Virus record (IMG/VR): IMGVR_UViG_3300032296_001633
Coordinates: 1 to 32,991 of that record
Origin: a virus
Length of the DNA stretch: 32,991 bases
Strand: one strand, 5' to 3'
This document shows, one piece after another, positions 746 to 32,991 of the stretch. Made by a program: the position numbers and the translations under genes. Under the pieces are notes generated by a model. That model was not told where the DNA came from. It did not search any database and was given only the letters and a program-made list of their open reading frames with translations. Positions within the stretch are counted from its first letter, which is position 1, and each line of letters begins with the position of its first letter.

Positions 746-1038
746 ACAACCGTCACACAGGAACGACGCGATGGAAGGGACAGCTGACGCGCCCGTACTT
801 CAGCAAGAAAGTGCGCAACGGCTTCTCTCTCCTCCTCCAGAGGATCAGGCCGGACAACGAATACGAGCTGGCCGCGCTCCTCTTCATGAAGAAGTCGATC
901 GACCATGCTAGAATGGTCGAGCCGGAAGCGCATGACGCGCCTGTCTCCCCGGACGAGGCTGAGGAGGGTCTCCACCCTCCCGGCCTCGAGGGAGGACCGG
1001 AGGAGGCACACAACAATGGATACGAAGCAACAGCGTGA
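742..1038 (+). CDS. Hypothetical protein, 98 aa
   Basis: The ATG at 742 overlaps the TGA of the Gp157-like gene (ATGA). The first 55 residues are basic and contain RWKGQLTRPYFSKKVRN and the hydrophobic stretch LAALLFMKKS. The remainder is Pro/Glu/Gly-rich and looks disordered. The 3' end runs under the start of the CsrA-like gene in another frame, overlapping by 23 nt, and also carries the hairpin at 976-995. No family recognised. The coupled start and downstream spacing support a real gene, but the low-complexity tail makes the exact product less certain. Confidence 0.6.
   Translation: MNNRHTGTTRWKGQLTRPYFSKKVRNGFSLLLQRIRPDNEYELAALLFMKKSIDHARMVEPEAHDAPVSPDEAEEGLHPPGLEGGPEEAHNNGYEATA
976..995 (+). 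promoter_or_regulatory. Hairpin just upstream of the CsrA-like gene's ribosome site
   Basis: CCTCCC (976-981) and GGGAGG (990-995) form a perfect 6-bp stem with an 8-nt loop. Three bases later comes GGAGGAGG (999-1006), which holds two GGA triplets and serves as the Shine-Dalgarno for the ATG at 1016. A hairpin directly before a GGA-containing ribosome site recalls the leader family near the right end of the genome, although this loop has no GGA. It could be an autoregulatory site. Confidence 0.4.
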
Positions 1039-1219
1039 TCCGTCTCTCGGATATGTCTCGCGCAACGTGCGCGAGGGAGACATCATCAACCTCTCCAGAG
1101 ACGGGGAGGAGATCGGATTCATCGAGGTACGGCACGTCCCGAGGGATGTTCGGGTGTCGCTCGTACTGGCATTCAAGCGCGAGATACGGATATCTCGCTC
1201 AAAGGAGACTCAGCAATGA
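1016..1219 (+). CDS. CsrA-like small RNA-binding regulator (putative)
   Basis: This 67-residue protein aligns by eye with CsrA/RsmA, the dimeric RNA-binding protein that blocks translation by binding GGA in hairpin loops and ribosome sites. VSRNVREGDIINLS (about residues 14-27) corresponds to the LxxTRxxGExxxIG start of CsrA. EIGFIEVRHVPRDVRVSLV corresponds to the central strands, and FKREIRISRSKE to the APKEVxVHREE end; the arginine there matches the RNA-contact Arg44 of CsrA. It differs in having a 13-residue N-terminal extension and a 2-3 residue longer central loop. The start is ATG 1016 with GGAGGAGG upstream, and the stop overlaps the next ATG. The family call is mine by eye and not profile-checked. 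GGA hairpins elsewhere in the genome make the function plausible. Confidence 0.55.
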   Translation: MDTKQQRDPSLGYVSRNVREGDIINLSRDGEEIGFIEVRHVPRDVRVSLVLAFKREIRISRSKETQQ

Positions 1220-7491: not shown

Positions 7492-8246
7492 GGACAGAGG
7501 AAGTCGATATCGAGAGCGTATCGTTCGATCCGGCGAATGCCCGGAAGCATGGGGAGAAGAACCTCGATGCGATCAAGTCATCGCTCAGGCGATTCGGGCA
7601 ACAGAAGCCGATCGTCGTGGACGCGAATGGAGTCGTCCGCGCTGGGAACGGGACACTTGCGGCAGCGAAGGCGCTCGGTTGGAAGAAGATCGCCGTGGTC
7701 CGTTCTCCTCTCTCTGGCTCGGAGGCGACTGCATACGCGATCGCGGACAACAGAACCGCGGAACTGGCGGAATGGGACGAGGACATACTCGCGCAGACGC
7801 TCTCCGCGCTCGAGGAGGAGGATCGGGAGCTAGCGAGGTCAACTGGCTTCGACGCTGACGAACTTGATCGGATCACGTCCGGCGGTGAGATTGAGACTCA
7901 GTACAGCACGAAGGTCACATCGCCCGTCTACGAGATCACGGGAGAATGCCCGAGGATCCAAGAGCTGTGCGATCGTCAGAAGCATGATCTTCTGATCGAG
8001 GCCATCGAGAAGGCTGGACTGCCTGAGGAGCTATCCTTGTTCCTCCGAATGGCTGCGACGAGGCACATCGTCTTCAACTATGCACGTATCGCTGAATACT
8101 ATGCACACTCGGATCCGAATATTCAGAGACTGTTCGAGGACTCGGCGCTGGTCATCATCGACTTCAATCGCGCAGTCGAACTCGGGTTCGTGCGGTTGAA
8201 CGAGAAGATCGAGGCGCTGGTTGACAAGGACGGCGAGGATGCGTGA
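7488..8246 (+). CDS. ParB/Srx-domain protein with a conserved C-terminal phage domain
   Basis: The start at ATG 7488 overlaps the methyltransferase stop. Residues 1-75 are a ParB N-terminal-like domain: VSFDPANARKHGEKNLDAIK, FGQQKPIVVDANGVVRAGNG, then TLAAAKALGWKKIAVV. In place of the usual GxRR box it has GNGT, a variant common in phage ParB-like proteins next to DNA-modifying enzymes. About residues 136-245 form a second domain with YEITGECPRIQELCDRQKHD and FLRMAATRHIVFNYARIAEY, then DSALVIIDFNRAVELGFVRL. I recall this second domain from phage proteins beside base-modification genes. Its function is unknown. No partition gene (ParA) is present, so plasmid segregation is unlikely. Confidence 0.8.
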   Translation: MRTEEVDIESVSFDPANARKHGEKNLDAIKSSLRRFGQQKPIVVDANGVVRAGNGTLAAAKALGWKKIAVVRSPLSGSEATAYAIADNRTAELAEWDEDILAQTLSALEEEDRELARSTGFDADELDRITSGGEIETQYSTKVTSPVYEITGECPRIQELCDRQKHDLLIEAIEKAGLPEELSLFLRMAATRHIVFNYARIAEYYAHSDPNIQRLFEDSALVIIDFNRAVELGFVRLNEKIEALVDKDGEDA

Positions 8247-9096: not shown

Positions 9097-9418
9097 GGTT
9101 CCGATCGACGAGCGTCTCGTTCAGGCACTTGCCCGGATCGGATGCACGTACGACGAGATCGCCACGGTGACCGGGATCTCGAATGCGACCCTGCGAAGGC
9201 GTTGTAAGGACATCGTTGCCAGAGGTCACGACGAGATGAAGACTTCGCTGAGGCGATGGCAGTACGAGAAGGCGAAGGAGGGTTCCGTGCCGATGCTGAT
9301 CTGGCTCGGCAAGCAGTTCCTTGGTCAGAAGGATCGCATCGACGAAACGAGGCGCGAGGAGATCGTGACGATCGAGCCGTTCGATCTTCCGAAACCTCGT
9401 CTCGCGGATTCAGCTTGA
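9083..9418 (+). CDS. terS: Terminase small subunit (putative)
   Basis: The 111-residue protein has an N-terminal helix-turn-helix (LARIGCTYDEIATVTGISNA, about residues 13-32, then TLRRRC) and a helical C-terminal half with SLRRWQYEKAKEGSVPMLIW followed by LGKQFLGQKDRID. The 'G..P.LIWLGKQ.LGQKD' ending is a hallmark of many phage terminase small subunits, which bind the packaging start site and hand it to the large subunit. The large terminase gene follows with a 4-nt overlap. The start overlaps the glycosyltransferase gene by 14 nt. Confidence 0.85.
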   Translation: MGRSKVPIDERLVQALARIGCTYDEIATVTGISNATLRRRCKDIVARGHDEMKTSLRRWQYEKAKEGSVPMLIWLGKQFLGQKDRIDETRREEIVTIEPFDLPKPRLADSA

Positions 9419-10593
9419 GGATCAGATTCCCAACGGCCAAGTCCATCCTGCATCCGTCGCAGCTGACCGTCTTCAACGCGCTGCGACGTTTCAACGTGCT
9501 CCAAATCGGACGTCGTTGGGGCAAGACTAGGTTTCAAGAGTTCAGCATCCTCGACACGGCGATTCGTGGAGGCAAGTGCGCGTGGTTCGCGCCTAGCTAC
9601 AAGTACCTCGCGGAACCCGGACGCGACCTCGAGGCGGCACTTGCGCCGATCATGGATCGGTACGATCGCGTCGAGAAGCGGATGCAACTGACCACGGGAG
9701 GGTCGATTGACTTCTGGACTCTCGAGGATGCCGACGCTGGCCGTGGTCGTTTCTACGACCTTGTGACCGTGGATGAGGCTGGATTCGTGACAGGCCTCCT
9801 TGACATCTGGAGGGCTGCTATCAGGCCGACGCTGGCCGACCGTCGAGGCCGTGCGATCTTTGGAGGAACCCCGAAGGGAACAGGAGACTTCCATCGGTTG
9901 TTCCTCGAGGCTCAGGGAGATACGACCGGGACTTGGGCCGCGTTCAGGCTCGGGTCTGGATCGAATCCATATCTCGATCCTTCTGAGGTCGAGGAGATGA
10001 GGAGAAGTCTCCCGAAGGCTGTTGCTGATCAGGAGATCGAAGGCATCCCGGCTGAGGATGGAGGCTGCCCGTTCGGTCTGGATGCGATCAGGGCGTGTAC
10101 CGCTCCTCTCTCATCCTCTGATCCAGAATGCTGGGGAGTCGACCTTGCAAAGTCTCAGGATTGGACTGTAGCTCTTGCGCTCGACGCAGAGGGAAGGGTA
10201 TGTCGACTCGAGCGTTGGCAGTCTCCTTGGAATGTGACGAGGGAGAGACTCGCACGAATGATCGGATCGGCACCAGCGCAGATCGACTCTACGGGTGTCG
10301 GCGACCCTATCGTCGAGGATCTCAGGAAGGTCTGTCGTCGAGTCGAGGGGTTCAAGTTCACTTCTCAATCGAAGCAGCAGTTGATGGAAGGACTTCAGAT
10401 CGCCATTTCGACCAACGAGATCCGATTTCCCGATGGATGGCTTCGGGCTGAACTCGAGGCGTTTGGCTTCCGATACACAGGAAGGAATGTTTCATACGAG
10501 GCGACCGTCGGCCACGACGACGGTGTATGCGCTCTCGCGCTTGCGGTTCTCGCTCGTCGTTCCCGCCGTCCACTCATCGTCAAGGTCATCTGA
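9415..10593 (+). CDS. terL: Terminase large subunit (packaging ATPase and nuclease)
   Basis: The only credible start is TTG 9415, coupled to the small-subunit stop (TTGA); it lacks a clear Shine-Dalgarno. The 392-residue protein has Walker A GRRWGKT (32-38), Walker B LVTVDE (116-121) and the coupling motif GTPKGT (151-156). The C-terminal RNase H-like nuclease has its expected acidic residues in GVDLAKSQDW (D243), QIDSTGVGDP (D291) and GHDDG (D368/D369). It pumps DNA into the prohead through the portal encoded next door and cuts it. All core motifs are intact. It is compact for a large terminase. Confidence 0.95.
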   Translation: MRIRFPTAKSILHPSQLTVFNALRRFNVLQIGRRWGKTRFQEFSILDTAIRGGKCAWFAPSYKYLAEPGRDLEAALAPIMDRYDRVEKRMQLTTGGSIDFWTLEDADAGRGRFYDLVTVDEAGFVTGLLDIWRAAIRPTLADRRGRAIFGGTPKGTGDFHRLFLEAQGDTTGTWAAFRLGSGSNPYLDPSEVEEMRRSLPKAVADQEIEGIPAEDGGCPFGLDAIRACTAPLSSSDPECWGVDLAKSQDWTVALALDAEGRVCRLERWQSPWNVTRERLARMIGSAPAQIDSTGVGDPIVEDLRKVCRRVEGFKFTSQSKQQLMEGLQIAISTNEIRFPDGWLRAELEAFGFRYTGRNVSYEATVGHDDGVCALALAVLARRSRRPLIVKVI

Positions 10594-13500
10594 ATGAACC
10601 TACTCGCACGGATCAAGGCAGCGTTCTCGTCGGAGAAGTACCAGCAGTCGTCGATGACTGTCCTTCGCGGAGAACCTGCAAAGCGATCTCCATTCGACAA
10701 CCGTGCCGCTGTCGCCGCGTACAGGTCGTGGATCTACGCGGCGGCGAATCTCAACGCTGTCGGAGTCGCATCGCAGCCTCTCCGCTTGTACGTGAAGAAT
10801 CGCAGCGCAGGCACGAAGCTCTGGAGGACTCGCAAGGCCGCTCATCGAACCAAGGCATATCTTTCCGGTTGCCTCGAGCAGATGCCAAGTCGGTATGCGA
10901 TGACGAAGGCCGCTGAGTACGGAGACGACTACGAGGTCGTCGAGGATGCGCACCCGATCCTGACATTGCTCTCGAAGGTCAATCCATACATGAATGGATT
11001 CGATGCGACGGTGCTTCGAGTCCTGTACGGCGAACTCACGGGCAACGCCTACATGCATCCGGTTCTCGACGATGCCACGAAGGTGCCTGTCGAACTCTGG
11101 CCGATGCCGAGCCAGTACGTCGAGATCGTTCCGGGTCAGCAGGGAGAGCCGTTCGTCAAGGAATATCGGTACGGCGCGACCGAGGAGCAGAAGCGGGAGA
11201 ACCGCTACTCGCCTGACGAAGTGATCCACTTCCGTCGTCCGAATCCAAGCGACCTGTACTACGGAATCGGAAAGGTCGAAGCGGCGTGGGGAGCTGCGAC
11301 CGCGAACGAGGCGATTCATGAGATGGATGTCGCCTTCTTCGCAAACAAGGCGCGACCTGACTATCTGCTCGTCGTGAAGTCCAATGCGCACCCGGACGAG
11401 CTGGAGCGTCTCGAGGTGTCGATCGACGAGAAACTGCGTGGCTCGAAGCGCACAGGCCGCTTCCTCACCACGACTGCGGACATCGACCTCAAGCCGCTCT
11501 CGTTCCCGCCGAAGGATCTCGCCGGTCGTGAGCAGATCGTCGAGGAGATCGCTGCGGTGTTCGGCGTTCCGGTCAGTATGTTGAAGGCGAACGATCCGAA
11601 CCTCGCCAGCGCGACGGTCGGTTTCGCGTCGTGGAAGCAGACGACGATCCTGCCGCTTCTGCGCATGGACGAGGAGACTCTCAATCAGAACCTCCTTCCG
11701 CTGTTCGGCATCGAGGGCGATGCGTTCCTCGCCTACGACAATCCCGTTGCAGAGGACGAGCGGTTTGCGTTTGAGAAGACACGGGCGATGGTTGCTGGCG
11801 GAATCATGACCGCGAACGAGGCTCGTATGCGGGAAGGACTCGAGGCTGTCGCTGATCCGATGGCCGACGCGCTTCTTGTGAACGGTCAGCCTCTCGGTGC
11901 TTCGATGCCTCCTGCTGCTCCTCTCGGCGCGGCGATGGGACAGCAGAATGCGGCGCTTACGTTCGAGCCAATGCCGGATTCCTTCGAGAAGGATGCGCTG
12001 TCTGACTGCGTATCCGAGAAGATTCCGAAGTTGATCGAGGAGGGATATCCTCAGGATCAAGCGGTCGCAATCGCCTACTCGATGTGCCGAGAAGGAAAGT
12101 CGATCGAGGAGGCGGCGACGTCTCTCGGCATCGCGTCGAAGGCGTTCGACGATGCCGACGTGAAGGCGCTTGGTGACATCGACACGCGACCTCCGCAGGG
12201 AGTCGCGGACAACGCCCGTCGTGCGCTCGAGGTTCGTGCGCGGAAGCCTGAGTCGCAGCGCGGTATGACCGCTGTCGGCATCGCACGGGCGCGTGATCTT
12301 GCGAATCGCGTCGAACTCTCAGAGGACACGATTCGGCGCATGCTGAGCTACTTCGAGCGTCACGAGGTCGACAAGCAGGGATCGACTTGGGATGAGCAGG
12401 GTCGAGGATGGCAAGCATGGTACGGATGGGGAGGCGACGACGGCTGGGCGTGGGCGCGTCGAAAGGTGGAGGAGTTCGACAGGGAGCGTGAACGCAACTC
12501 CGAGCGCAAGAAGAAGTCGTGCGAATGCTGCGCATGCGAGGTCAAGGCACCAGCAGCTCCATCCGAGAGGATTCACGGGAGCGATCGAAACAGGGAAGGT
12601 TCTGCGTCTGGTTCTCGCGGCGGCATCGAGATGAGCGATGCAACTGTCGAATCCCTGAAGAACAAGGTCGAGGAACACAACGACAAGTATGGAGATGAGG
12701 CTGGGAAGAAGGTCGATCTCGGGATGTTGAAGGCCGTGTGGAGGCGCGGCGCTGGTGCGTTCTCCACATCCCACCGACCCGGAATGGGTCGTGAGCAGTG
12801 GGCGATGGGACGCGTCAACGCTTTCCTGTTCCTCGTTCGCAACGGTCGACCGGAGGATTCCGACTACGTGACCGACAACGATCTTCTTCCGAAGGATCAT
12901 CCGAAGAGAAGCGAATCGAAGTCATTTAGCGTGGCTGAACTGTGGACGAAGCATCTCGAGGATCAGGAGCAGTTCTTCGACGGGATCATGGCGAAGGATC
13001 TTGGCAAGGATGCTCTCCGAGAGTTCGACAAGATCACCGAGCGCGAGGAGGAGCTAGGCAAGAAGGTCGCGGCTGTCTTCGATAGGCAAGTCAAGAAGGT
13101 GCTTGAGAAGATCGCTGCCGCCGATGTACCGACTCCAGAACTTGCGTCAGAGATCGAGGTGCTGCTCAAGGCCAAGCGATGGAGGAAGGATCTCGTCGAG
13201 GCGTTGCGTCCATATCTCGAGGACTCGCTTGCCGCTGGGATCGCTCTCGGGACTCAGACGCTGAAGAAGCTGGATGCACTTCCTGCCAACTTCGATCGGA
13301 AGGCCGATGATCTTCGTGCGTATGCAAGATCGGAGTCGATTCGCCTCGCGGACAGGTCTGCTGAATCCGTGAATGGATATACGGCTGTCAAGTTCTCTGC
13401 CGTCATCGGAGATGGTCTTGCGAACGGAGAGACGATCCCTGAGATTACGGAGAGGGTCAAGGAGTGGGCTCGTAAGGACGGCGACGGAGAACGGGCGACA

Positions 13501-26236: not shown

Positions 26237-27637
26237 ATGGCACTGACCTACACCGGAACGGGCGGACTCTTCACGCGACTCGGCGCACTGATCTACATGA
26301 TGGATCAGGTTCGTGCTCATCAGGTAAACCTGAAGGCGCTGCTGGCGAATGTTCAGGCAGAGTACTCGTCGACAGACGCGTGGATGATCGACGTGCTGTC
26401 CGGGAACATCGAGCCGAGGATCGCAGAGGCTGGGAACATCCTGAACGACGTGCGCGCCGCAGCCGAGCGTACGATCCTCGAGATGTGCTTCACGGAGGCC
26501 ATCGCGTCAGGTGCGACGAACACGATGGTCAGGAAGGACATCCGCGAGGCGCTCGTCTGGCTGATCCGCCAGATGGATGCCGACACGAAGACGATCGACG
26601 GAACGACGATCACGAAGGGAGCGCTTGCGACCGGAGCGTCGAACAACGGCAACGGCAAGTTCGTGTATCTCTTCGATGCTCCGCACGTGCTGCTTGGCTC
26701 GACAGCGGACTTCCCGAACATCAGGACTGAGATCCTCGAGGTTCGCTGCGTCGAGGACGGCGTATCTGGAGCTATCTCGAGAGGCTCAGAGGTGTTCGAG
26801 GCGCGTGGACAGCCAGCGTATCAGGGACTCGACTACCGATTCCCCGGAGGGAGCGGGACGCTCATGCGCATCTCGACCGCATGCGCTTCCGTCGACAACG
26901 GCATTCCCGGACAGAACATCTTGCACAACTCAGACCTCGAGGATCAGACGAGCAACCTCCCAGATCGCTTCACGGTTTCAAGCGGTACAGCCGGCACGGA
27001 GTTCCTGACCGAGACGACTGCGGCGAACGTGTATCGCGGAACGAAGTCGATGAAGCTGGCTGTGACCGGAAGCACTTTCAAGATCAGGCAGAGATTGGCT
27101 GACTTCGATGGCACGTTGGGGAGACTCACCCCTGATCGTCCGTACGTGCTCGGAGTCGCGATCAAGAAGGCGGCTGGAGCGACAGGCACGTTCCGAATCA
27201 GCGTTCAGGACTCTGGAGGAACGATCATCGGAACCGCCAACGACTTCAAACTCGAGCAGACGATCTCCGCGACGACGACTTCCTTCGTCCTGTACACGAA
27301 CACCGTTCGGTCGCCGAGAGTGATCCCGAGCGAGATTTATCTCGTCGTCGAGACGACTGTCGCGGTCGCAGTCGCGGAAGCGTACGTCGATGAAATCATC
27401 ATCGCGGAGATGATGCCGATAGCTCCCGGAGGCCCGGCGATTGCGATTCTTGCTGGCTCGACCGATTGGAGCGTCGACGACAATGCTCGGTATCAGTTCA
27501 CGAACGATGCCGACGCTGGCTCGATGGGCGAGTTCGCCCGTGGATTCGACAGGCTGTTCGATATGTACGGCAAGGGACTCAGCCTCCCTGCCGACTACGC
27601 GGGAACCGAGAACATCCTTGACTCTCTGATCGCCTGA
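26237..27637 (+). CDS. Large virion structural protein with a carbohydrate-binding-like middle, 466 aa
   Basis: The start lies 2 nt after the previous stop with GGAAAGGAA upstream. Residues 1-125 are helical (LTYTGTGGLFTRLGALIYMM, DQVRAHQVNLKALLANVQAE). This 'TYTG..GLFTRLG..IY' opening recurs in large environmental phage proteins of unknown role. About residues 230-390 form a jelly-roll-like module: ILHNSDLEDQTSNLPDRFTV, KSMKLAVTGSTFKIRQRLAD and YVDEIIIAEM, as in carbohydrate-binding modules. The C-terminus is helical (GEFARGFDRLFDMYGKGLSL). It is the last gene of the tail cluster, so a tail fibre or virion surface protein is likely. Confidence 0.65.
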   Translation: MALTYTGTGGLFTRLGALIYMMDQVRAHQVNLKALLANVQAEYSSTDAWMIDVLSGNIEPRIAEAGNILNDVRAAAERTILEMCFTEAIASGATNTMVRKDIREALVWLIRQMDADTKTIDGTTITKGALATGASNNGNGKFVYLFDAPHVLLGSTADFPNIRTEILEVRCVEDGVSGAISRGSEVFEARGQPAYQGLDYRFPGGSGTLMRISTACASVDNGIPGQNILHNSDLEDQTSNLPDRFTVSSGTAGTEFLTETTAANVYRGTKSMKLAVTGSTFKIRQRLADFDGTLGRLTPDRPYVLGVAIKKAAGATGTFRISVQDSGGTIIGTANDFKLEQTISATTTSFVLYTNTVRSPRVIPSEIYLVVETTVAVAVAEAYVDEIIIAEMMPIAPGGPAIAILAGSTDWSVDDNARYQFTNDADAGSMGEFARGFDRLFDMYGKGLSLPADYAGTENILDSLIA

Positions 27638-27872
27638 TCAGTTCTCCCTGAATCGCCATCCGAGCCTGACCTATCAGGAACCTCAGCTCGTCGTCCTCGC
27701 ACAGGTCAAACGCCAGCGTGTACAGGTCGAGAGTCCTCCAGCTGATCTCGGAAATCGAGGCGCAGCAAGTGGCCTCTCTGCCTTCGATCTGCACGAAGGT
27801 CGCGGAGTGCAGGACTTCGCCTACGAACACGCGAACCCGACGAGCCCCAAGTTTTTTGAGAGAGTTCGACAT
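27579..27872 (-). CDS. Hypothetical protein, 97 aa, the only minus-strand gene
   Basis: On the minus strand this frame starts at 27872 and reads SNSLKKLGARRVRVFVGEVL, then EGREATCCASISEISWRTLD and ELRFLIGQARMAIQGELIRR. Composition is protein-like, and it fills the 235-nt gap after the late operon. Its 3' end overlaps the end of 26237-27637 by 59 nt. The ribosome site is weak (AGGG about 12 nt upstream). A palindromic TATATA (27901-27906) could serve both directions. I recognise no domain; a phage repressor role would need a DNA-binding motif, which I do not see. Confidence 0.5.
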   Translation of the reverse strand: MSNSLKKLGARRVRVFVGEVLHSATFVQIEGREATCCASISEISWRTLDLYTLAFDLCEDDELRFLIGQARMAIQGELIRRSESQGCSRFPRSRQGG

Positions 27873-27878
27873 TTGCTG

Positions 27879-27908
27879 TAGTCACCCTGCTCAGTTTGCC
27901 TATATAGT
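27879..27908 (+). promoter_or_regulatory. Candidate sigma70-type promoter before the recombination operon
   Basis: TAGTCA (27879-27884, 4 of 6 to TTGACA) is followed after 18 nt by TATAGT (27903-27908, 5 of 6 to TATAAT). Exactly 7 nt later begins the leader hairpin at 27916, so transcription would start at the stem base. Confidence 0.5.
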
Positions 27909-27915
27909 GTCTTGA

Positions 27916-27949
27916 AGCGGACACGGAGTTCGCTGAAGGAGACTTACAC
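27916..27949 (+). promoter_or_regulatory. Leader A: GGA-loop hairpin plus AAGGAGAC ribosome site
   Basis: AGCGGA (27916-27921) pairs with TTCGCT (27929-27934), one G-U pair; the loop CACGGAG contains ACGGA. GAAGGAGACTTACAC follows and leads to GTG 27950. A second GGA lies in the ribosome site at 27938-27940, 13 nt from the loop GGA. This is the first of seven leaders with this design. Confidence 0.65.
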
Positions 27950-28033
27950 GTGACATGCTATCTCATCGGAACGATCGCATTCTTTGCGGTCATGGCCTTC
28001 TCGCCTCTGTTCATCGAGGGAGGTGAGGAATGA
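27950..28033 (+). CDS. Tiny membrane peptide, 27 aa (GTG start)
   Basis: The GTG at 27950 lies 7 nt after AAGGAGA. The product MTCYLIGTIAFFAVMAFSPL plus FIEGGEE has a single membrane-spanning stretch and an acidic tail. Its stop overlaps the ATG of the annealing protein (ATGA), so it may be a leader peptide that couples translation to that gene. Alternatively it is a functional small membrane peptide. The strong ribosome site argues that it is translated. Confidence 0.6.
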   Translation: MTCYLIGTIAFFAVMAFSPLFIEGGEE

Positions 28034-28878
28034 GCGAACTCACACTCGCACAGGCGGGAACCCGCGCACTCGAGAGCTACATCGCCGCTGGCGACATCGG
28101 TCGGCTCGACCCGACCCAGCGCATCGCTCTGTACCGGGCTGTCTGCGACTCGCTCGGACTGAATCCCTTGACCCAGCCATTCGAGTACTTGAGTTTGAAT
28201 GGAAAGGTCCAGCTGTACGCGAAGAAGTCATGCACCGAGCAACTTCGAGCCATCCACGGCGTGAGCGTGACTCGGATGGAGCGAGAGGTGCAGGGCGACA
28301 TCGTGACGGTCACGGTGGCGGTCAGGGATCGCACAGGAAGGGAGGACATCTCGACCGGATCGGTTGCGCTGGGTTCCTTGAAGGGCGAGGCGCTGGCGAA
28401 CGCCCACATGAAGGCCGAGACGAAGGCCAAGCGTCGAGCAACTCTGAGCATCTGTGGGCTGGCGGTTCTGGACGAGACGGAGATCGACAGCATCCCGAAC
28501 GCGAAGTCTCTCTCAGTCGAGGACTTCCACGCCGCTCCCGCCAAGTCCGAACCGAAGCAGATGAAGGAGATGACGAGAGAGGAGCGTCGAGAGGATCTCG
28601 AGCAGCTCATGTCTCCGGTTCCTCCCGGTCAGAAGGACGCGAAGACGGACACGATGGTGATTTCGCATCAGTCCCAGATCGGCGTGGTCGACGTGAAGGG
28701 CAAGCGAGTCTGGCGGGTGGATCAGGATGGTGAGCCTCTCCCGATCGCCGTGCTGGACGAGAGGATCGCAAGCGTCCTCGAGGCGCAACAGGCGTTCAGG
28801 GTCGACACGGTGGTTCGTGTCAGGACTCGGAAGAACGGAGGACTCGAGATCGTCGAGCTGATCGGAGACGCCAAGTGA
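28030..28878 (+). CDS. Putative single-strand annealing / recombination protein
   Basis: The 282-residue protein contains GDIGRLDPTQRIALYRAVCD (about residues 21-40), SLGLNPLTQPFEYLSLNGKV, QLYAKKSCTEQLRAIHGVSV and ANAHMKAETKAKRRATLSIC, then GLAVLDETEIDSIP. I know this pattern ('L.p.q...y....C..LGLNPlT.PF.yi.lnGkl.LYa......QLR..hgvs') from phage proteins annotated as recombination or RecT/Rad52-like annealing proteins. The C-terminal third is charged and variable. It would anneal single strands and feed the RusA-like resolvase. The start overlaps the small membrane peptide's stop. Confidence 0.65.
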   Translation: MSELTLAQAGTRALESYIAAGDIGRLDPTQRIALYRAVCDSLGLNPLTQPFEYLSLNGKVQLYAKKSCTEQLRAIHGVSVTRMEREVQGDIVTVTVAVRDRTGREDISTGSVALGSLKGEALANAHMKAETKAKRRATLSICGLAVLDETEIDSIPNAKSLSVEDFHAAPAKSEPKQMKEMTREERREDLEQLMSPVPPGQKDAKTDTMVISHQSQIGVVDVKGKRVWRVDQDGEPLPIAVLDERIASVLEAQQAFRVDTVVRVRTRKNGGLEIVELIGDAK

Positions 28879-29237
28879 GCTCCTGCGAGATCCCCGGCAG
28901 CGTGTCGATCAGGACACAGCTGCGGATCGCAACGGAGGATCCGAGGATATTTCGTCCCATCGAGATCGCGGAGGCGATCGAGGTCGCACGGATCATCAGG
29001 CGCGACGTTCAGATACCGGAGGAGATTCGTCCGGTACTCGAGACGGGCATCTGCCTCGACCTAATGCCCGGTCACCTGACTCCTCGCAAGTCCCTCATCG
29101 CGGAAGCACTGCGCGTGTCGGTTCGGACAGTCAGGCGGCATGAGCTGGCGTGGGAGTTGAACGACCAGCGACTGCGATTCGACATCGTGCATCGCGCCGC
29201 GAGACTCGTCTTTGCGAATCGCGGTTCAAACCTATGA
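28875..29237 (+). CDS. HTH protein, possible replication or regulatory factor, 120 aa
   Basis: GTG 28875 overlaps the annealing gene's stop and has GGAG 8 nt upstream. Residues about 68-88 (LTPRKSLIAEALRVSVRTVR) form a helix-turn-helix. The N-terminal half is helical and acidic with IAEAIEVARIIRRDVQIPEE. The position between an annealing protein and a terminator would suit an origin-binding or control protein, but I recognise no family and see no catalytic motif. Confidence 0.6.
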   Translation: MSSCEIPGSVSIRTQLRIATEDPRIFRPIEIAEAIEVARIIRRDVQIPEEIRPVLETGICLDLMPGHLTPRKSLIAEALRVSVRTVRRHELAWELNDQRLRFDIVHRAARLVFANRGSNL

Positions 29238-29243
29238 CGACGC

Positions 29244-29271
29244 TGGCCGGGGAAACCCGGCCAACGTTTTT
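29244..29271 (+). terminator. Rho-independent terminator of the recombination operon
   Basis: TGGCCGGG (29244-29251) and CCCGGCCA (29256-29263) form a perfect 8-bp stem closed by a GAAA tetraloop, followed by ACG and five T residues (29267-29271). It lies 6 nt after the stop at 29237. This is the best terminator in the genome. Confidence 0.92.
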
Positions 29272-29417
29272 GCAGAATCTGACATTTTTCCCACTGGACA
29301 GGTTCGTGTTTCTCCCCCCTAATGACCCCCCACTTCAACCACTCCTCTCTCCTCTCTCCATCTCTGTAGACGAGGACTCGAAGAGGAGCTACGGCAGGAC
29401 GCCGAAGAGAGAGAAGA
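29272..29417 (+). other. Noncoding gap with a long pyrimidine-rich tract
   Basis: From about 29309 to 29369 the + strand is nearly all C and T, interrupted by a few A and G. TGGACA (29295-29300) recalls the -35 boxes at 30155 and 31775, but the nearest -10-like TAATGA is 19 nt away. No hairpin leader of the GGA type occurs before the next gene. An open frame (29234-29431) crosses the terminator and is not trusted. Confidence 0.45.
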
Positions 29418-30032
29418 ATGGAACCATCTGAACTGGCAGACTTTGCGATCAAGGCGCGGTCGTTCTTCCGAGGCGATTGGGACGAGGACTTGTGGCGCAT
29501 CGCGCTTCCTCGCATCGCAGCGGAGCAGAAGGAGGTCGCGTTCAATGCGCTCGACGACTACGCGATCCAGTTCGGTGGGCCGAGGGCGAAGTTCATACCG
29601 TCCCGGTTCTTCGCGCACGTGATTCAACTGCGAGATAGTCTCGAGTCCTCTCGCGCTGCGGAGAGGAGGATCGCGGAAGCGAATCGTCGTGCGTTCGAGT
29701 CGAGCGAGTCTGCTCGTATCGTCGATGCCGATTGGTCTGAGCGCAGGAGGGAGATCGAGACTGCGGACTCGACCGCGATCGGAGAGGCGGTCTCGTTTTT
29801 GCGGTCGATAGGCTGGGGAAGTCCTCCGCAGGACTTCTCGAAGTGGCCTCGAGTCTGGATCCTCGCCGTATCCGACCTCCTTACGGATCGGGTCGTGGCT
29901 GGCCTCGATCCCTTCGGAGGAGGTTTCTACGAGGAGGGCAGCGGGAGGAAGTTGCGCCCGATAGGGGCAAGGGACTTCTACCGAGAGGCTGGAAAGGCCG
30001 CTAGCAGCCTGTCTGGGGCGTTCGGCGCATAG
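29418..30032 (+). CDS. Hypothetical protein, 204 aa, possible replication partner
   Basis: The protein starts EPSELADFAIKARSFFRGDW, DEDLWRIALPRIAAEQKEVA, with a helical middle (SRAAERRIAEANRRAFESSE) and a C-terminal part RSIGWGSPPQDFSKWPRVWI and GGGFYEEGSGRKLRPIGARD. 'W......l.....Ev..Al...A..f...yiPs...f' at the N-terminus resembles helicase-loader-like phage proteins that sit after an HTH replication gene. I cannot confirm that by eye. It is a single gene after a terminator; the ribosome site is weak. Confidence 0.6.
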   Translation: MEPSELADFAIKARSFFRGDWDEDLWRIALPRIAAEQKEVAFNALDDYAIQFGGPRAKFIPSRFFAHVIQLRDSLESSRAAERRIAEANRRAFESSESARIVDADWSERRREIETADSTAIGEAVSFLRSIGWGSPPQDFSKWPRVWILAVSDLLTDRVVAGLDPFGGGFYEEGSGRKLRPIGARDFYREAGKAASSLSGAFGA

Positions 30033-30046
30033 GGGGGGTGTCTACA

Positions 30047-30103
30047 GGCCTCCAGAGGCCCCAAGGCCGTACAAGCGATTCTAGGCGGTTTGCCACCTAG
30101 AAT
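30047..30103. repeat. Two inverted repeats in a noncoding gap
   Basis: GGCCTC-CA-GAGGCC (30047-30060) is a perfect palindrome with a 2-nt centre. A second dyad, ATTCTAGG (30078-30085) and CCTAGAAT (30096-30103), has perfect 8-bp arms with inner GG/CC pairs. Neither has a T-run. They lie 15-70 nt after the 29418 gene and about 50 nt before a promoter, so an operator, origin or packaging site is possible. Confidence 0.6.
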
Positions 30104-30154
30104 GTCCCGATAACAGAAATCTCGAAGAAATATCGTGGATTCCCTCAAGATCGC

Positions 30155-30182
30155 TGGACAGCGTATCCGGCGACGTTATTCT
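30155..30182 (+). promoter_or_regulatory. Sigma70-type promoter for the 30219 operon
   Basis: TGGACA (30155-30160, 5 of 6 to consensus), a 16-nt spacer and TATTCT (30177-30182, 4 of 6). The surrounding TCGCTGGACAGC (30151-30162) recurs at 31771-31782. The hairpin of leader B starts 7 nt after the -10 box. Confidence 0.65.
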
Positions 30183-30189
30183 GTGGGCA

Positions 30190-30218
30190 GAGATAGGAAA
30201 TCTCAGAAGGAGACACAC
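30190..30218 (+). promoter_or_regulatory. Leader B: GGA-loop hairpin plus AGAAGGAGACACAC
   Basis: GAGAT (30190-30194) pairs with ATCTC (30200-30204); the loop is AGGAA. AGAAGGAGACACAC (30205-30218) leads directly to ATG 30219. Loop GGA (30196) and ribosome-site GGA (30209) are 13 nt apart. Confidence 0.7.
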
Positions 30219-30554
30219 ATGGATCTCAAGACTCACATGACCAACGGACTGAAGCACATGAACCGCCAGCTCTTCTTGGCTCATCAGGTCGAGAAGGCAG
30301 AGCGGAAGGCTGACGCAGCTGATGCTGCATATCGAGCCGCTGAGTATGCGCTCGAGGCTCGGAACACTCCTGCGAATCGCGCTCGGCTGGAGAAGGCACT
30401 CGCTCGTTGCAAGGCCGCAGACGCTGAGGTTGCCAAGGCACTCGCGGCAGAGGAGGCATACGACGAGGAGACTTCAAAGGCAATCGCCGCATCGTGGGAT
30501 GCCTACGAGGCTCGGATGATGAATCAGAACGCTCAGTCCCGTCAGGCGAAGTAA
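30219..30554 (+). CDS. Ala/Lys/Glu-rich helical protein, 111 aa
   Basis: The leader fixes ATG 30219. The product starts DLKTHMTNGLKHMNRQLFLA and continues as one long alanine-rich charged helix (KADAADAAYRAAEYALEARN, then ARLEKALARCKAADAEVAKA). It has no membrane segment or recognised domain. As the first gene after a strong promoter and leader it is probably highly expressed. Function unknown. Confidence 0.75.
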   Translation: MDLKTHMTNGLKHMNRQLFLAHQVEKAERKADAADAAYRAAEYALEARNTPANRARLEKALARCKAADAEVAKALAAEEAYDEETSKAIAASWDAYEARMMNQNAQSRQAK

Positions 30555-30555
30555 C

Positions 30556-30585
30556 GAGGCAGGAGCCTCAGAAAGCGAGACAGAC
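30556..30585 (+). promoter_or_regulatory. Leader C: intercistronic GGA-loop hairpin
   Basis: GAGGC (30556-30560) and GCCTC (30565-30569) enclose AGGA. The following AGAAAGCGAGACAGAC (30570-30585) is a degenerate version of the conserved ribosome site and lacks its GGA. It lies between a stop (30554) and ATG 30586, with no promoter visible. The hairpin is identical to that of leader E. Confidence 0.65.
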
Positions 30586-30786
30586 ATGAAGACGTACTCG
30601 AATCGGTTCGCGGAGATGGAACAGCAGCCATGTGGAGGATGGATTGTCTGGAGCAAAGTCGCGGGACTTCCTCTCGACGAACACGGCCACCTCTGCGATG
30701 GCTCGAAGGAGCCGAAGATTCATCGTGACTACGCATCGGCTCGTGAGACGATGCTCATTCTCACCGCGTCCTACAAGCGACTTTGA
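30586..30786 (+). CDS. Hypothetical protein, 66 aa
   Basis: The start lies at the end of leader C. The protein reads KTYSNRFAEMEQQPCGGWIV, then WSKVAGLPLDEHGHLCDGSK and ends ETMLILTASYKRL. It is a small soluble protein with two cysteines. No family recognised. Its ribosome site is the weakest of the seven leaders, so it may be translated less. Confidence 0.65.
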   Translation: MKTYSNRFAEMEQQPCGGWIVWSKVAGLPLDEHGHLCDGSKEPKIHRDYASARETMLILTASYKRL

Positions 30787-30824
30787 ACCGCCGGAACGGA
30801 TCCGGCAGAAGGAGACACACATGA
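30787..30824 (+). repeat. Leader D, copy 1 of a 38-bp repeat with GGA-loop hairpin
   Basis: GCCGGA (30790-30795) and TCCGGC (30801-30806) enclose ACGGA. AGAAGGAGACACAC (30807-30820) leads to ATG 30821. The 38 bases 30787-30824 are identical to 32075-32112. The loop matches the CsrA consensus core ANGGA. No promoter lies upstream, so this is an internal operon element. Confidence 0.75.
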
Positions 30825-31240
30825 ACACGAACGAAACCACCACCAGCACCTTCGATCCCTCCGACCTCAAGGCTGCCGCTCGAGAAATGTGGGCGCGCAT
30901 GATCACCGACCTTGCCTCGACCAGCAACGTGATGCGCTGGCGCGGAGACAACGAAGGTGTCCTGACCGCGATCTCGATGCTCACGGGACTTCCGCTCAAG
31001 GCGATCCATGTTGCCGCAGCAGAGGTCGCGATGGTGCGAAGGATCGCGCTGCTGAAGGAGGCAGCTCATTACTACTCGCCATGGTTCCAGACGACGATGG
31101 ACAACCTCGATAGCGAGTCCCATCTCGGCGCAGTCGTCGATCGCTTCCTAGCTAACAGCTGGCAGACGAAGCCGATCGAGGCATACGCGTACTCGGACGA
31201 GGAGAAGGACGCGATCGCTCAGTGGATCGGCAAGCATTGA
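30821..31240 (+). CDS. Hypothetical protein, 139 aa
   Basis: ATG 30821 is fixed by leader D. After a Thr/Asn-rich start the protein is helical: FDPSDLKAAAREMWARMITD, NEGVLTAISMLTGLPLKAIH and VAAAEVAMVRRIALLKEAAH. The C-terminus (EEKDAIAQWIGKH) is also helical. No catalytic motif or membrane segment. Its stop codon lies inside the hairpin of leader E. Function unknown. Confidence 0.7.
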   Translation: MNTNETTTSTFDPSDLKAAAREMWARMITDLASTSNVMRWRGDNEGVLTAISMLTGLPLKAIHVAAAEVAMVRRIALLKEAAHYYSPWFQTTMDNLDSESHLGAVVDRFLANSWQTKPIEAYAYSDEEKDAIAQWIGKH

Positions 31241-31266
31241 GGCAGGAGCCTCAGAAGGAGACACGC
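31239..31266 (+). promoter_or_regulatory. Leader E: GGA-loop hairpin overlapping a stop codon
   Basis: GAGGC (31239-31243) and GCCTC (31248-31252) enclose AGGA. The stem's first two bases are the last two of the upstream TGA (31238-31240). AGAAGGAGACACGC (31253-31266) leads to ATG 31267. The loop and ribosome-site GGAs are 12 nt apart. Ribosomes finishing the upstream gene would open this hairpin. Confidence 0.7.
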
Positions 31267-31737
31267 ATGAGCAAGTACATCATCAATCTCGACCCGGCAC
31301 GGGGAACCTATCTTGTCGCCTCTCGCGTCCACACCGAAGGCATCCTCTCTCCTCTCCCGTCCGTGTGGGTGACCGAAAGCACCTCAGACCGGAAGATGGC
31401 GAAGCGATTCTCCACCTACGAACAGGCTCGGGCAGTCACCGACTTGCTCCGTGGCTGGGGAGGAGGAGAGGTCATCGAGGAGGTCAACGACCTCAGCGAT
31501 ACGTCCCTCCCGAAGTTCGAGAGGACTCTCGAGGACGGCACGTTGGTCTGGGTGTCGTTCTGGACGCGTCGATCCAGACTCATGGGCGATCGCTTCCTCG
31601 AGGTTTGGGCCGCGATCCACGGGCTGCGGGGAGCTGGCTCGTATTCGTTCTGCACGGCGATGCGAGAGGAGGACATCGTGTCGATCTGTCAGAACGAGAT
31701 CAAGAACCTCCAGCGCCTCGGCCATCTCCCGAACTAG
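31267..31737 (+). CDS. Hypothetical protein, 156 aa
   Basis: ATG 31267 follows leader E. The product is alpha/beta-like: KYIINLDPARGTYLVASRVH, then RFSTYEQARAVTDLLRGWGG, GTLVWVSFWTRRSRLMGDRF and a C-terminal EEDIVSICQNEIKNLQRLGH. The mixed strands and helices suggest a folded enzyme-size domain, but I recognise no motif. It is the last gene before the next promoter. Function unknown. Confidence 0.7.
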   Translation: MSKYIINLDPARGTYLVASRVHTEGILSPLPSVWVTESTSDRKMAKRFSTYEQARAVTDLLRGWGGGEVIEEVNDLSDTSLPKFERTLEDGTLVWVSFWTRRSRLMGDRFLEVWAAIHGLRGAGSYSFCTAMREEDIVSICQNEIKNLQRLGHLPN

Positions 31738-31774
31738 ATTCCGAGGAGATTTCGCAGAATACGAAGAGACTCGC

Positions 31775-31802
31775 TGGACAGCTCAACATTCGTCGCTAGA
31801 TT
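31775..31802 (+). promoter_or_regulatory. Sigma70-type promoter for the early operon
   Basis: TGGACA (31775-31780), a 16-nt spacer and TAGATT (31797-31802, 4 of 6). The 12 bases 31771-31782 are the same as at the 30155 promoter. The hairpin of leader F begins 7 nt after the -10 box. Transcription would run through the genome join to the terminator at 4356. Confidence 0.6.
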
Positions 31803-31809
31803 GATCACA

Positions 31810-31838
31810 GAGGCAAGATGCCTCAGAAGGAGACTTAC
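31810..31838 (+). promoter_or_regulatory. Leader F: hairpin without GGA in the loop
   Basis: GAGGCA (31810-31815) and TGCCTC (31819-31824) enclose AGA; with a shorter stem the loop is AAGAT. AGAAGGAGACTTAC (31825-31838) leads to ATG 31839. It is the one leader of seven lacking GGA in the loop, although the ribosome-site GGA remains. Confidence 0.6.
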
Positions 31839-32075
31839 ATGAACGGCTGGAAGAATCATCAGACTTGGAACGTGTCGCTGTGGCTTCAGAACGAGGAGGC
31901 GATCTACAACCGGATGCTGGAGCGGCTGCTGAAGCTTCCCGGCAAGCCGACCGCTTCTCAGGCGAAGGCCATCGCGATCCACGCGATCGGCAATCGCACT
32001 GCGGACAACGTGCCGTTGACCTCTCCGGTCATCTGCTGGTCGGAGATCGCTGAGATGATGGCAGAGTGCAAGTGA
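31839..32075 (+). CDS. DUF7249-like conserved phage protein, 78 aa
   Basis: The opening NGWKNHQTWNVSLWLQNEEA matches a widespread small phage protein that begins 'GW.NYeTWnvaLWl.Nde..Y'. I recall it as DUF7249 but cannot check. The rest has SQAKAIAIHAIGNRTADNVP and a C-terminal helix CWSEIAEMMAECK. Such proteins are common early genes in phages of many hosts and have no known function. Confidence 0.8.
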   Translation: MNGWKNHQTWNVSLWLQNEEAIYNRMLERLLKLPGKPTASQAKAIAIHAIGNRTADNVPLTSPVICWSEIAEMMAECK

Positions 32076-32112
32076 CCGCCGGAACGGATCCGGCAGAAGG
32101 AGACACACATGA
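32075..32112 (+). repeat. Leader G, copy 2 of a 38-bp repeat with GGA-loop hairpin
   Basis: This is an exact copy of 30787-30824. Stem GCCGGA (32078-32083) and TCCGGC (32089-32094) close over ACGGA; AGAAGGAGACACAC (32095-32108) leads to ATG 32109. The first base of the repeat is the last of the upstream TGA. Confidence 0.75.
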
Positions 32113-32336
32113 CCGACGACGAAATGATGGAGGAGCTGAGGCAGATCGCCGCCAACCTGATGGCTGGCAAGGGCGGAGAAGGGCCGCGCAACTTCACGTG
32201 GTTCGGCCCGTGGTTCGTGGTCAGCCAGCTCACCCGGGAAGAGGCAAACGATCGGGTGGTGAAGTACGGGGGCAAGGTTCGCATCTGGACGGGAGAGGAT
32301 CACGTCGATGCGCCCGGATTCGGAGGTGAAGCGTGA
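32109..32336 (+). CDS. Hypothetical protein, 75 aa
   Basis: ATG 32109 follows leader G. The product has an acidic helix DDEMMEELRQIAANLMAGKG and a beta part NFTWFGPWFVVSQLTREEAN, then YGGKVRIWTGEDHV. The sequence looks like one small folded domain. No family recognised. Its end overlaps the next GTG. Confidence 0.7.
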   Translation: MTDDEMMEELRQIAANLMAGKGGEGPRNFTWFGPWFVVSQLTREEANDRVVKYGGKVRIWTGEDHVDAPGFGGEA

Positions 32337-32572
32337 CCAGCTACAAGCCGGGTTCGCTGAAGGAGATGGATCGCCTCATCAAGAGGATCCGCGAGTCGCG
32401 TTCTGCGATCAGGTTCTTCCGCAGCCAACTGCGTCAAGGCAACGATGCAGAGGAGAGGCAGAACGCGATCGACGGGATCGTCGGTGCGCTCCTTTCCATC
32501 GAGACTGCAAGCGCGTGTCTCTACTCGGACGCGCATAACTGTGCCGAGCAATGGAGGAACAAGAAGCCATGA
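32333..32572 (+). CDS. Hypothetical helical protein, 79 aa (GTG start)
   Basis: GTG 32333 overlaps the upstream TGA and has GGAGG 6-7 nt before it. The product is helical: KPGSLKEMDRLIKRIRESRS, AIRFFRSQLRQGNDAEERQN, then AIDGIVGALLSIETASACLY. It has three cysteines or histidines near the end but no clear motif. Function unknown. Confidence 0.65.
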   Translation: MTSYKPGSLKEMDRLIKRIRESRSAIRFFRSQLRQGNDAEERQNAIDGIVGALLSIETASACLYSDAHNCAEQWRNKKP

Positions 32573-32802
32573 GACGAATCGGAAAGAAGCGATGGCAGAC
32601 GCTGGTGCGCAAGCGCGAGACGTTTCTACAGAAGGCGCTGCTGATCGAACTTGAACTGCGGTCGATCATCGAGTCCCGTCTGACAGGCGATGAAACGGAT
32701 TATCTCGACAGCGTGTGGTTCGAGAAGGCCCACATGATGAAGGCGTGGATAGAGGAGGACTTCGAGATGGAACTGAATCAGTACAAGGAGGCATCACAAT
32801 GA
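32569..32802 (+). CDS. Hypothetical helical protein, 77 aa
   Basis: ATG 32569 overlaps the previous stop (ATGA). The N-terminus is strongly basic (RRIGKKRWQTLVRKRETFLQ) and the rest acidic and helical (ALLIELELRSIIESRLTGDE, MMKAWIEEDFEMELNQYKEA). A basic-then-acidic layout can bind nucleic acid, but nothing proves it. It is followed by the gene that crosses the genome join. Confidence 0.65.
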   Translation: MRRIGKKRWQTLVRKRETFLQKALLIELELRSIIESRLTGDETDYLDSVWFEKAHMMKAWIEEDFEMELNQYKEASQ

Positions 32803-32991
32803 GAGAGGACAATCGAACGCAAGGCGACATCTGGATCAGGCTCGAGCGCGATGACCTCGAGGTCGAGACGGAGGCTGTCGACCTGATCGCATGGATCGAG
32901 GGGCTTTCCCTCGGAAGCGAGGACGAGCCGACCGTGACCTTCCTCGCGCACAAGGTCGGCGAGGAACTCGGATCGAGCGAGAACATCTGGA
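32799..32991 (+). CDS. Hypothetical protein, 5' part of the gene crossing the genome join
   Basis: ATG 32799 overlaps the previous stop (ATGA) with AAGGAGG 8 nt upstream. It reads REDNRTQGDIWIRLERDDLE, then VETEAVDLIAWIEGLSLGSE and runs off the window. Continuing through the 123-bp repeat it ends at 224 in the left part, giving 97 residues. No family recognised. Confidence 0.8.
   Translation, partial: MREDNRTQGDIWIRLERDDLEVETEAVDLIAWIEGLSLGSEDEPTVTFLAHKVGEELGSSENIW
32869..32991. repeat. Right copy of the 123-bp terminal direct repeat
   Basis: Identical to 1-123. Removing one copy gives a circle of 32,868 bp in which every gene around the join remains intact. Confidence 0.95.

Follow-up and report, generated by a model that had tools for sequence, protein, structure and literature searches.

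Covarying hairpin leaders before early-region genes of an uncultured phage group, and a candidate protein partner

Introduction

To our knowledge, translational control of a whole set of genes in DNA phages is known mainly from RegA of phage T4, and it is suspected for the start-associated sequences (SAS) of mycobacteriophages. The coat-protein operators of RNA phages are hairpins near the ribosome site, each with a specific loop, that are bound by a phage protein and serve the autoregulation of a single gene. In this study, we describe a family of hairpin leaders that precede gene starts in the early region of IMG/VR virus record IMGVR_UViG_3300032296_001633 and of related uncultured phages. 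The whole stretch of 32,991 bases that was analysed is referred to as the window.

The phage elements most like the leaders in position and repetition are the SAS/ESAS of cluster K mycobacteriophages, which occur in 11–19 copies directly before the starts of non-structural genes (Pope 2011, PMC3203893). These sequences have almost always one orientation, stand before different gene families, contain AGGAG, and were proposed to have a role in translation initiation (PMC3203893). The leaders described here are likewise repeated before the starts of non-structural genes in one orientation. However, the SAS is a conserved 13-bp sequence, GGGATAGGAGCCC, that occupies the ribosome site, and the inverted repeats of the ESAS were judged not to pair in RNA (PMC3203893), whereas the leader alignment contains no fixed 13-bp string of this kind; its stems covary, only its loop and a GAGAC motif are kept, and the ribosome site is a distinct element.

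The gp43 hairpin of T4 and RB69, another close precedent, has a specific loop located 5' of the ribosome site and is bound by a phage protein, and it serves one gene (PMC3014915). The leaders share with this hairpin and with the coat-protein operators a specific loop near the ribosome site; unlike these single-gene autoregulatory sites, however, one leader type marks many genes. RegA of T4 is a single phage protein that controls the translation of many early genes through sites without RNA structure (PMC3014915). A leader regulon as proposed below would resemble RegA control in the number of early genes involved and differ from it in using structured RNA.

The Csr/Rsm proteins bind loops of the form A(N)GGAX best, and the pentaloops AGGGA and AAGGA well (PMC4005645), so that many of the leaders would be fair Csr targets. 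With the target hairpins of RsmZ and hcnA (PMC4005645), they share a small A-N-GGA stem-loop with variable N near the ribosome site. The variation among the leaders is nevertheless unlike that of a Csr target, because A1 and G3 are retained where GGA disappears: GGA is not required (it is found in 29 of 48 stem-loops), four-base ANGA loops are common, and none of the tests made places the candidate reader in CsrA.

Results

Related uncultured phages were collected via the portal (80 loci), the family of P0001, a 67-residue protein of the window (16 loci), and the Rad52-like protein encoded at 28030 (54 loci), whose name derives from a weak Pfam hint (E 0.05). The leader was present in more than 20 related phage contigs, and 48 distinct stem-loops of the phage group were compared. 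Double changes occurred at all six stem pairs, and 95.9% of the cells were paired in the alignment, for which leaders had been selected for having a hairpin. The covariation score was 0.954, compared with 0.21 in shuffled alignments and at most 0.12 with slid partners, and RNAalifold recovered the same helix. The arms of the element covary while its loop is fixed, and the element is thus selected as an RNA structure.

The loop has five bases in 40 of the stem-loops. Position 1 is A in 38 of these and position 3 is G in all 40, while any base is found at position 2; position 4 is G (31/40) or A (9/40), and position 5 is A, T or C, being other than A in 12 of the 40. The four-base loops are mostly ANGA, and a C-G pair closes the loop in 41 of the 48 stem-loops. 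ACGGA is the commonest loop. Conservation of the loop does not reside in GGA, since whole lineages carry ANGAN or ANGA loops. The preliminary description of this locus, which was made from the sequence of the window, had attributed the leaders to CsrA-type control and expected the loop GGA to persist in relatives; instead, the relatives keep the hairpins and lose GGA (ACGAA, AAGAA, ATGAA, AAGAT, ATGAC, ATGA and AAGA).

A scan of both strands of the available genome pieces, requiring the loop core and a 5-bp stem but no ribosome site, gave 169 distinct hairpins, and GAGAC followed within 26 nt downstream in 72 of them, compared with 3.8% of random stretches. GGAGAC was absent in 16 of these 72 hairpins, most of which are followed by ATG; GAGAC is therefore retained where the GGAG of the ribosome site has been lost. 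In most leaders GAGAC overlaps the ribosome site. The leader thus consists of a stem of 5–7 bp that ends in a C-G closing pair, an A-N-G-R loop of four or five bases, and GAGAC further downstream. In a control set of 89 other viral contigs chosen for holding CAGAAGGAGACNNNCATG, only two clear leaders were found, one of which belongs to the same phage group. A search of Rfam 15 with window positions 27000–32991 gave no match near a gathering score; a mir-M7 match (E 0.05) was dismissed as chance.

As shown in Table 1, the window contains seven leaders. All seven hairpins of the preliminary description are present, about 14–17 nt upstream of a start codon. A covariance model was built from 41 leaders of the group, including three from the window; its top seven matches in the window were the seven leaders, with E between 6e-10 and 1e-3, four of them from outside the seed. 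It had also been stated that six of the seven loops hold GGA, and that five of those six leaders have GGA in the ribosome site as well; both counts are correct, the exceptions being AAGAT at 31810 and the leader at 30556, respectively. Leader 7 is almost an exact duplicate of leader 4, and leaders 3 and 5 likewise duplicate each other in the hairpin, so that the window holds about five independent hairpins rather than seven. At the level of chance, a stem score of 13 was reached by 13% of random 36-mers of the window. No such hairpin adjoining a GGAGAC site was seen at the structural-gene starts inspected.

Table 1. Coordinates of the leaders, of leader-like elements and of the P0001 gene in the window.
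Feature	Position	Strand	Hairpin (arm-loop-arm)	Following sequence	Start codon	Score or remark
Leader 1	27916..27952	+	AGCGGAC-ACGGA-GTTCGCT (27916-27934)	GGAGAC at 27938	GTG 27950	31.0 bits, E 5.8e-7
Leader 2	30190..30221	+	GAGAT-AGGAA-ATCTC	AGAAGGAGACACAC	ATG 30219	26.5 bits, E 9e-6
Leader 3, no GGAG	30556..30588	+	GAGGC-AGGA-GCCTC	AGAAAGCGAGACAGAC	ATG 30586	18.7 bits, E 1e-3
Leader 4	30790..30823	+	GCCGGA-ACGGA-TCCGGC	AGAAGGAGACACAC	ATG 30821	42.2 bits, E 6e-10
Leader 5	31239..31269	+	GAGGC-AGGA-GCCTC	AGAAGGAGACACGC	ATG 31267	27.6 bits, E 5e-6
Leader 6	31810..31841	+	GAGGC-AAGAT-GCCTC	AGAAGGAGACTTAC	ATG 31839	30.6 bits, E 7.5e-7
Leader 7	32078..32111	+	GCCGGA-ACGGA-TCCGGC	AGAAGGAGACACAC	ATG 32109	42.2 bits, E 6e-10
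Possible leader 8	1179..1218	+	GCGAGATA-CGGA-TATCTCGC	TCAAAGGAGAC	ATG 1216	fold z −2.05
Degenerate leader without Shine-Dalgarno sequence	29392..29420	+	CGGC-AGGAC-GCCG	AAGAGAGAGAAGA	ATG 29418	under model threshold
P0001, 67 amino acids	1016..1219	+				conserved small beta protein family, no CsrA family assignment; candidate partner of the leaders

For leader 1, the hairpin had been described with a CACGGAG loop. The hairpin is present, but it is better drawn as GCGGAC-ACGGA-GTTCGC, with an ACGGA loop and one G-U pair, because the relatives show GCGGAC-ACGGA-GTCCGC before the homologous Rad52-like gene; an orthologous counterpart of this leader was found in relatives. In the window, its GTG begins an open reading frame (ORF) of 27 amino acids whose end extends into the Rad52-like gene. 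A differing ORF of 26–34 amino acids, often hydrophobic (for example, VTCYLIGTIAFFAVMAFSPLFIEGGEE), lies between the leader and the Rad52-like gene in many phages, so that the leader now precedes the small ORF (window 27950-28033; L268:7893-7926; L267:6382; L269:7866; L272:7863; L217:3259; L247:2526).

The hairpin of leader 2 is retained in the RNA fold, but the region is no more stable than its shuffles. The stretch around this leader (30190-30204) is less stable than its own shuffles (z +1.3) despite the same layout, and the leader is possibly decaying. Leader 3 has the sequence AGAAAGCGAGACAGACATG, which retains GAGAC but has no GGAG, and the same type without a Shine-Dalgarno (SD) sequence occurs in relatives. 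Leader 5 overlaps the stop codon of the preceding gene, and leader 6 precedes a DUF7249 gene. Before the relatives' homologue of the gene at 29418, where the window has a degenerate element, the leader is CTCTGGC-AGGA-GCCAGAG AAAGAGAGACACAATG. The possible leader 8 is doubtful (10.4 bits, E 0.19); it lies within the 3' end of the P0001 gene and encodes the residues REIRISR of P0001.

The leaders are confined to the early region, where they stand before gene starts in one orientation and one per gene; no strong covariance-model match was found in the structural arm. The two ends of the window join by a direct terminal repeat of 123 bp (1-123 and 32869-32991), so that the early region begins at about 27.9 kb and continues across this junction to about 1.7 kb; the genome is either circularly closed or terminally redundant. 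For most of the leader-bearing genes of the window (30219, 30586, 30821, 31267 and 32109), no homologue exists in 16 related phages, yet those relatives carry leaders before other early-region genes, so that non-homologous genes stand behind leaders in different phages. The leader therefore outlives the genes that it serves. Several leaders begin only a few bases from the stop codon of the gene before, and the arm thus reads as a series of leader-gene cassettes.

The base at loop position 4 tends to agree among the leaders of different genes within one phage. In a per-phage loop table compiled by hand from leader listings, phages G025 and G026 have ACGAA, ATGAA, AAGAA and AAGAT, and G029 has ACGAA, ACGAC and ATGAA, while G004–G012 and G027 have ANGG loops. 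The concordance within phages gave p ~1e-4 by shuffling with one representative per lineage. Such concerted change is consistent with a trans-acting reader that varies together with the phage.

P0001 had been described as CsrA-like; none of the comparisons gave the CsrA match that this description would lead one to expect. P0001 and nine family members had no match to Pfam CsrA up to E 10, a PF02599 search found nothing in 21 phage records, and the best PHROG match (E 0.2) was to an unnamed family. In profile-profile comparison of the P0001 family with CsrA by hhalign, the probability was 0.5% both times, the second comparison being between 18 P0001 members and 12 CsrA sequences, phage CsrA included. 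Two AlphaFold2 monomer models have five strands and no C-terminal helix (mean predicted local distance difference test scores, pLDDT, of 83 and 81), and CsrA is absent among the matches listed by Foldseek (PDB, BFVD) and VIA, an absence that does not on its own rule out the fold. The P0001 profile also gave weak matches to unrelated PDB chains (E 0.28 at best), which were regarded as chance.

Of the segments conserved in CsrA (the ML-[IV]-L-[ST]-R start, VRIGIxAP and VxR-E), the P0001 alignment shows neither the ML.L.R start nor the AP; only an I-x-I-x-R/K segment is comparable to CsrA, weakly, and part of the apparent resemblance at the P0001 end (REIRISR) is encoded by the palindrome 1179-1198. 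The divergent homologue pair L274/L265 scores 10 bits against the CsrA hidden Markov model (HMM) over b3-b5, which exceeds the scores of 7462 other ORFs and of shuffles of the pair. The score of P0001 is at background (−0.3 bits), and shuffles of other members reach up to 11.5 bits. The resemblance of L274/L265 may be taken as a weak hint, not as membership. Known phage CsrA proteins (85 records) are clear CsrA with no detectable relation to P0001, and a search of reference phages gave no significant match to the P0001 family.

P0001 and the leaders occurred together in 10 of 10 clade contigs of at least 30 kb that were checked, and two terminase outgroups (42–43% identity, both fragments) had neither. 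The Gp157-like (221), Rad52-like (28030), helix-turn-helix-like (28875) and 29418 proteins have nearly the same distribution. Judged by this co-occurrence, the P0001 family, as one of about five early proteins found with the leaders, is a reasonable candidate for their reader. In many relatives, the P0001 gene is itself preceded by a far stronger hairpin of 7–12 bp, distinct from the leaders, often with a GNRA loop (GGGAGGGAGCA-GCAA-TGCTCCCTCCC or GGGGGAGGGCC-GAAA-GGCTCTCCCCC, for example), which lies directly 5' of the ribosome site and has no U run (L235 ~7920-7970, L236 ~7930-7980, L265 ~12650-12700, L271 near its end, window 955-1000). It may be an autoregulatory or mRNA-end element.

In the window, the P0001 gene lies shortly downstream of the Gp157-like gene (221-745; PF05565, E 6e-27). 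The leader region had no DNA-level match in reference phages. At 9256-9438, the first ~55 codons of the annotated terminase ORF are rich in Arg, and several relatives have a TGA inside the aligned frame, which is taken to fall within these positions; the annotated start is probably too early.

A host search by the portal gave no result. A terminase search gave a 76% match on an 18-kb contig in a Rhodobacteraceae metagenome-assembled genome (MAG), other matches being of 27–51% across many phyla; this hint is too weak to name Rhodobacteraceae as the host, as a binned phage contig is weak evidence. CsrA (PF02599) was found in one of 61 Rhodobacteraceae genomes, which was the MAG itself, and the other 60 lacked it, so that a host CsrA is no obvious reader in this only hinted host family. 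In this MAG (L322 RFQY01000039.1; L353), the PF02599 match lies elsewhere than the phage contig, and either of the two may be a binning artefact.

Discussion

The preliminary description had proposed that a CsrA-like protein of the phage, or CsrA of the host, controls the leader-bearing genes as a set. There is one leader family, it is selected as RNA, and it marks a set of early genes, so that set-wise translation control is the natural reading and this part of the description is retained; the CsrA label is not supported by the sequence and structure comparisons. With a probability of roughly 55%, we consider the leaders to be a family of phage translation leaders that is read by a trans-acting RNA-binding factor and so forms a translational regulon. 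In such a regulon, cis-acting mRNA leaders would precede the early-region gene starts, one per gene, and the factor would read the loop together with GAGAC, thereby setting the access of ribosomes to all leader-bearing genes simultaneously. Because loop position 4 shifts in concert within a phage lineage, the factor would more probably be encoded by the phage than by the host.

Reversible repression by occupation of the initiation region appears slightly more likely than activation. The GGAG-less leaders leave activation open, as their presence would be understandable if leaders assist initiation. As to the reader, we tentatively suggest, as a possibility that falls well short of being probable, that the small beta-protein family of P0001 reads the ANGR loop and GAGAC and coevolves with the loop, and that accessory early genes join the set by gaining a leader.

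Several points weigh against the proposed regulon or its reader. The concordance at position 4 could instead stem from leaders having been copied within a genome, and a hairpin alone could aid translation without any factor. The paired percentage of the alignment is partly built in and is not independent evidence, because the sequences were selected for a hairpin. Since the other early proteins share its distribution, co-occurrence does not single out P0001.

Among the alternatives, the one that survives best is a passive enhancer or insulator, in which the hairpin would free the ribosome site from upstream pairing or protect the mRNA, with a loop that serves only stability and no factor. The hairpins do lie just 5' of strong ribosome sites without covering them, their stems vary freely, and gene, leader and gene are tightly packed. 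However, the near-invariant A1 and G3 and the concerted shifts at position 4 are unexpected for a stability loop, the stable loops common in hairpins (GNRA, UNCG) hardly occur, and GAGAC is retained even where GGAG is lost; we therefore regard this explanation as rather unlikely.

In CsrA-type control, P0001 or a host CsrA would bind the loop GGA and the ribosome-site GGA and bridge the two. The commonest loop, ACGGA, belongs to the ANGGA forms known as strong Csr/Rsm targets (PMC4005645), and the five predicted strands of P0001, a number that CsrA also has, and the score of L274/L265 also speak for it. Against this, A and GGA are the fixed bases of Csr/Rsm recognition (PMC4005645), whereas the leaders lack GGA in 19 of 48 cases and vary at positions 4 and 5. 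Bridging is weakened by the SD-less leaders, in which the second site is missing, and P0001 has no Pfam, PHROG or hhalign link to CsrA, no CsrA among the Foldseek matches listed, no predicted C-terminal helix, and a score at background against the CsrA HMM, against which shuffled relatives reach up to 11.5 bits. This makes CsrA-type control improbable.

Direct contact with the ribosome, with the loop as a standby site or a second SD sequence (AAGGAG, CAGGAG), would agree with the many loop junctions that carry AGGA, AAGGA or GGAG-like strings and with the AGGA or AAGGA of many SD-less leaders. It is quite improbable, as base pairing with the anti-SD sequence is poor for loops such as ACGAA, ATGAC, AAGAT, ATGAA and ACGGT, and the fixed A1 contributes nothing to it. 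Palindromes acting at the DNA level, as operators or as recombination or end sites, are suggested by short inverted repeats in many copies and one direction, but we dropped this very improbable explanation because operator arms keep their sequence while the leader arms covary, changing complementarily around a fixed asymmetric loop, at positions tied to start codons on one strand.

Conclusions

Which protein might read the leader can be tested directly using short RNAs and some five candidate proteins, and the covariance model of the leader offers a means to find other such regulons. If the proposed regulon is real, it would provide a clear example of a structured translation regulon in phages, based on a compact covarying hairpin that outlasts the replacement of the genes it precedes.

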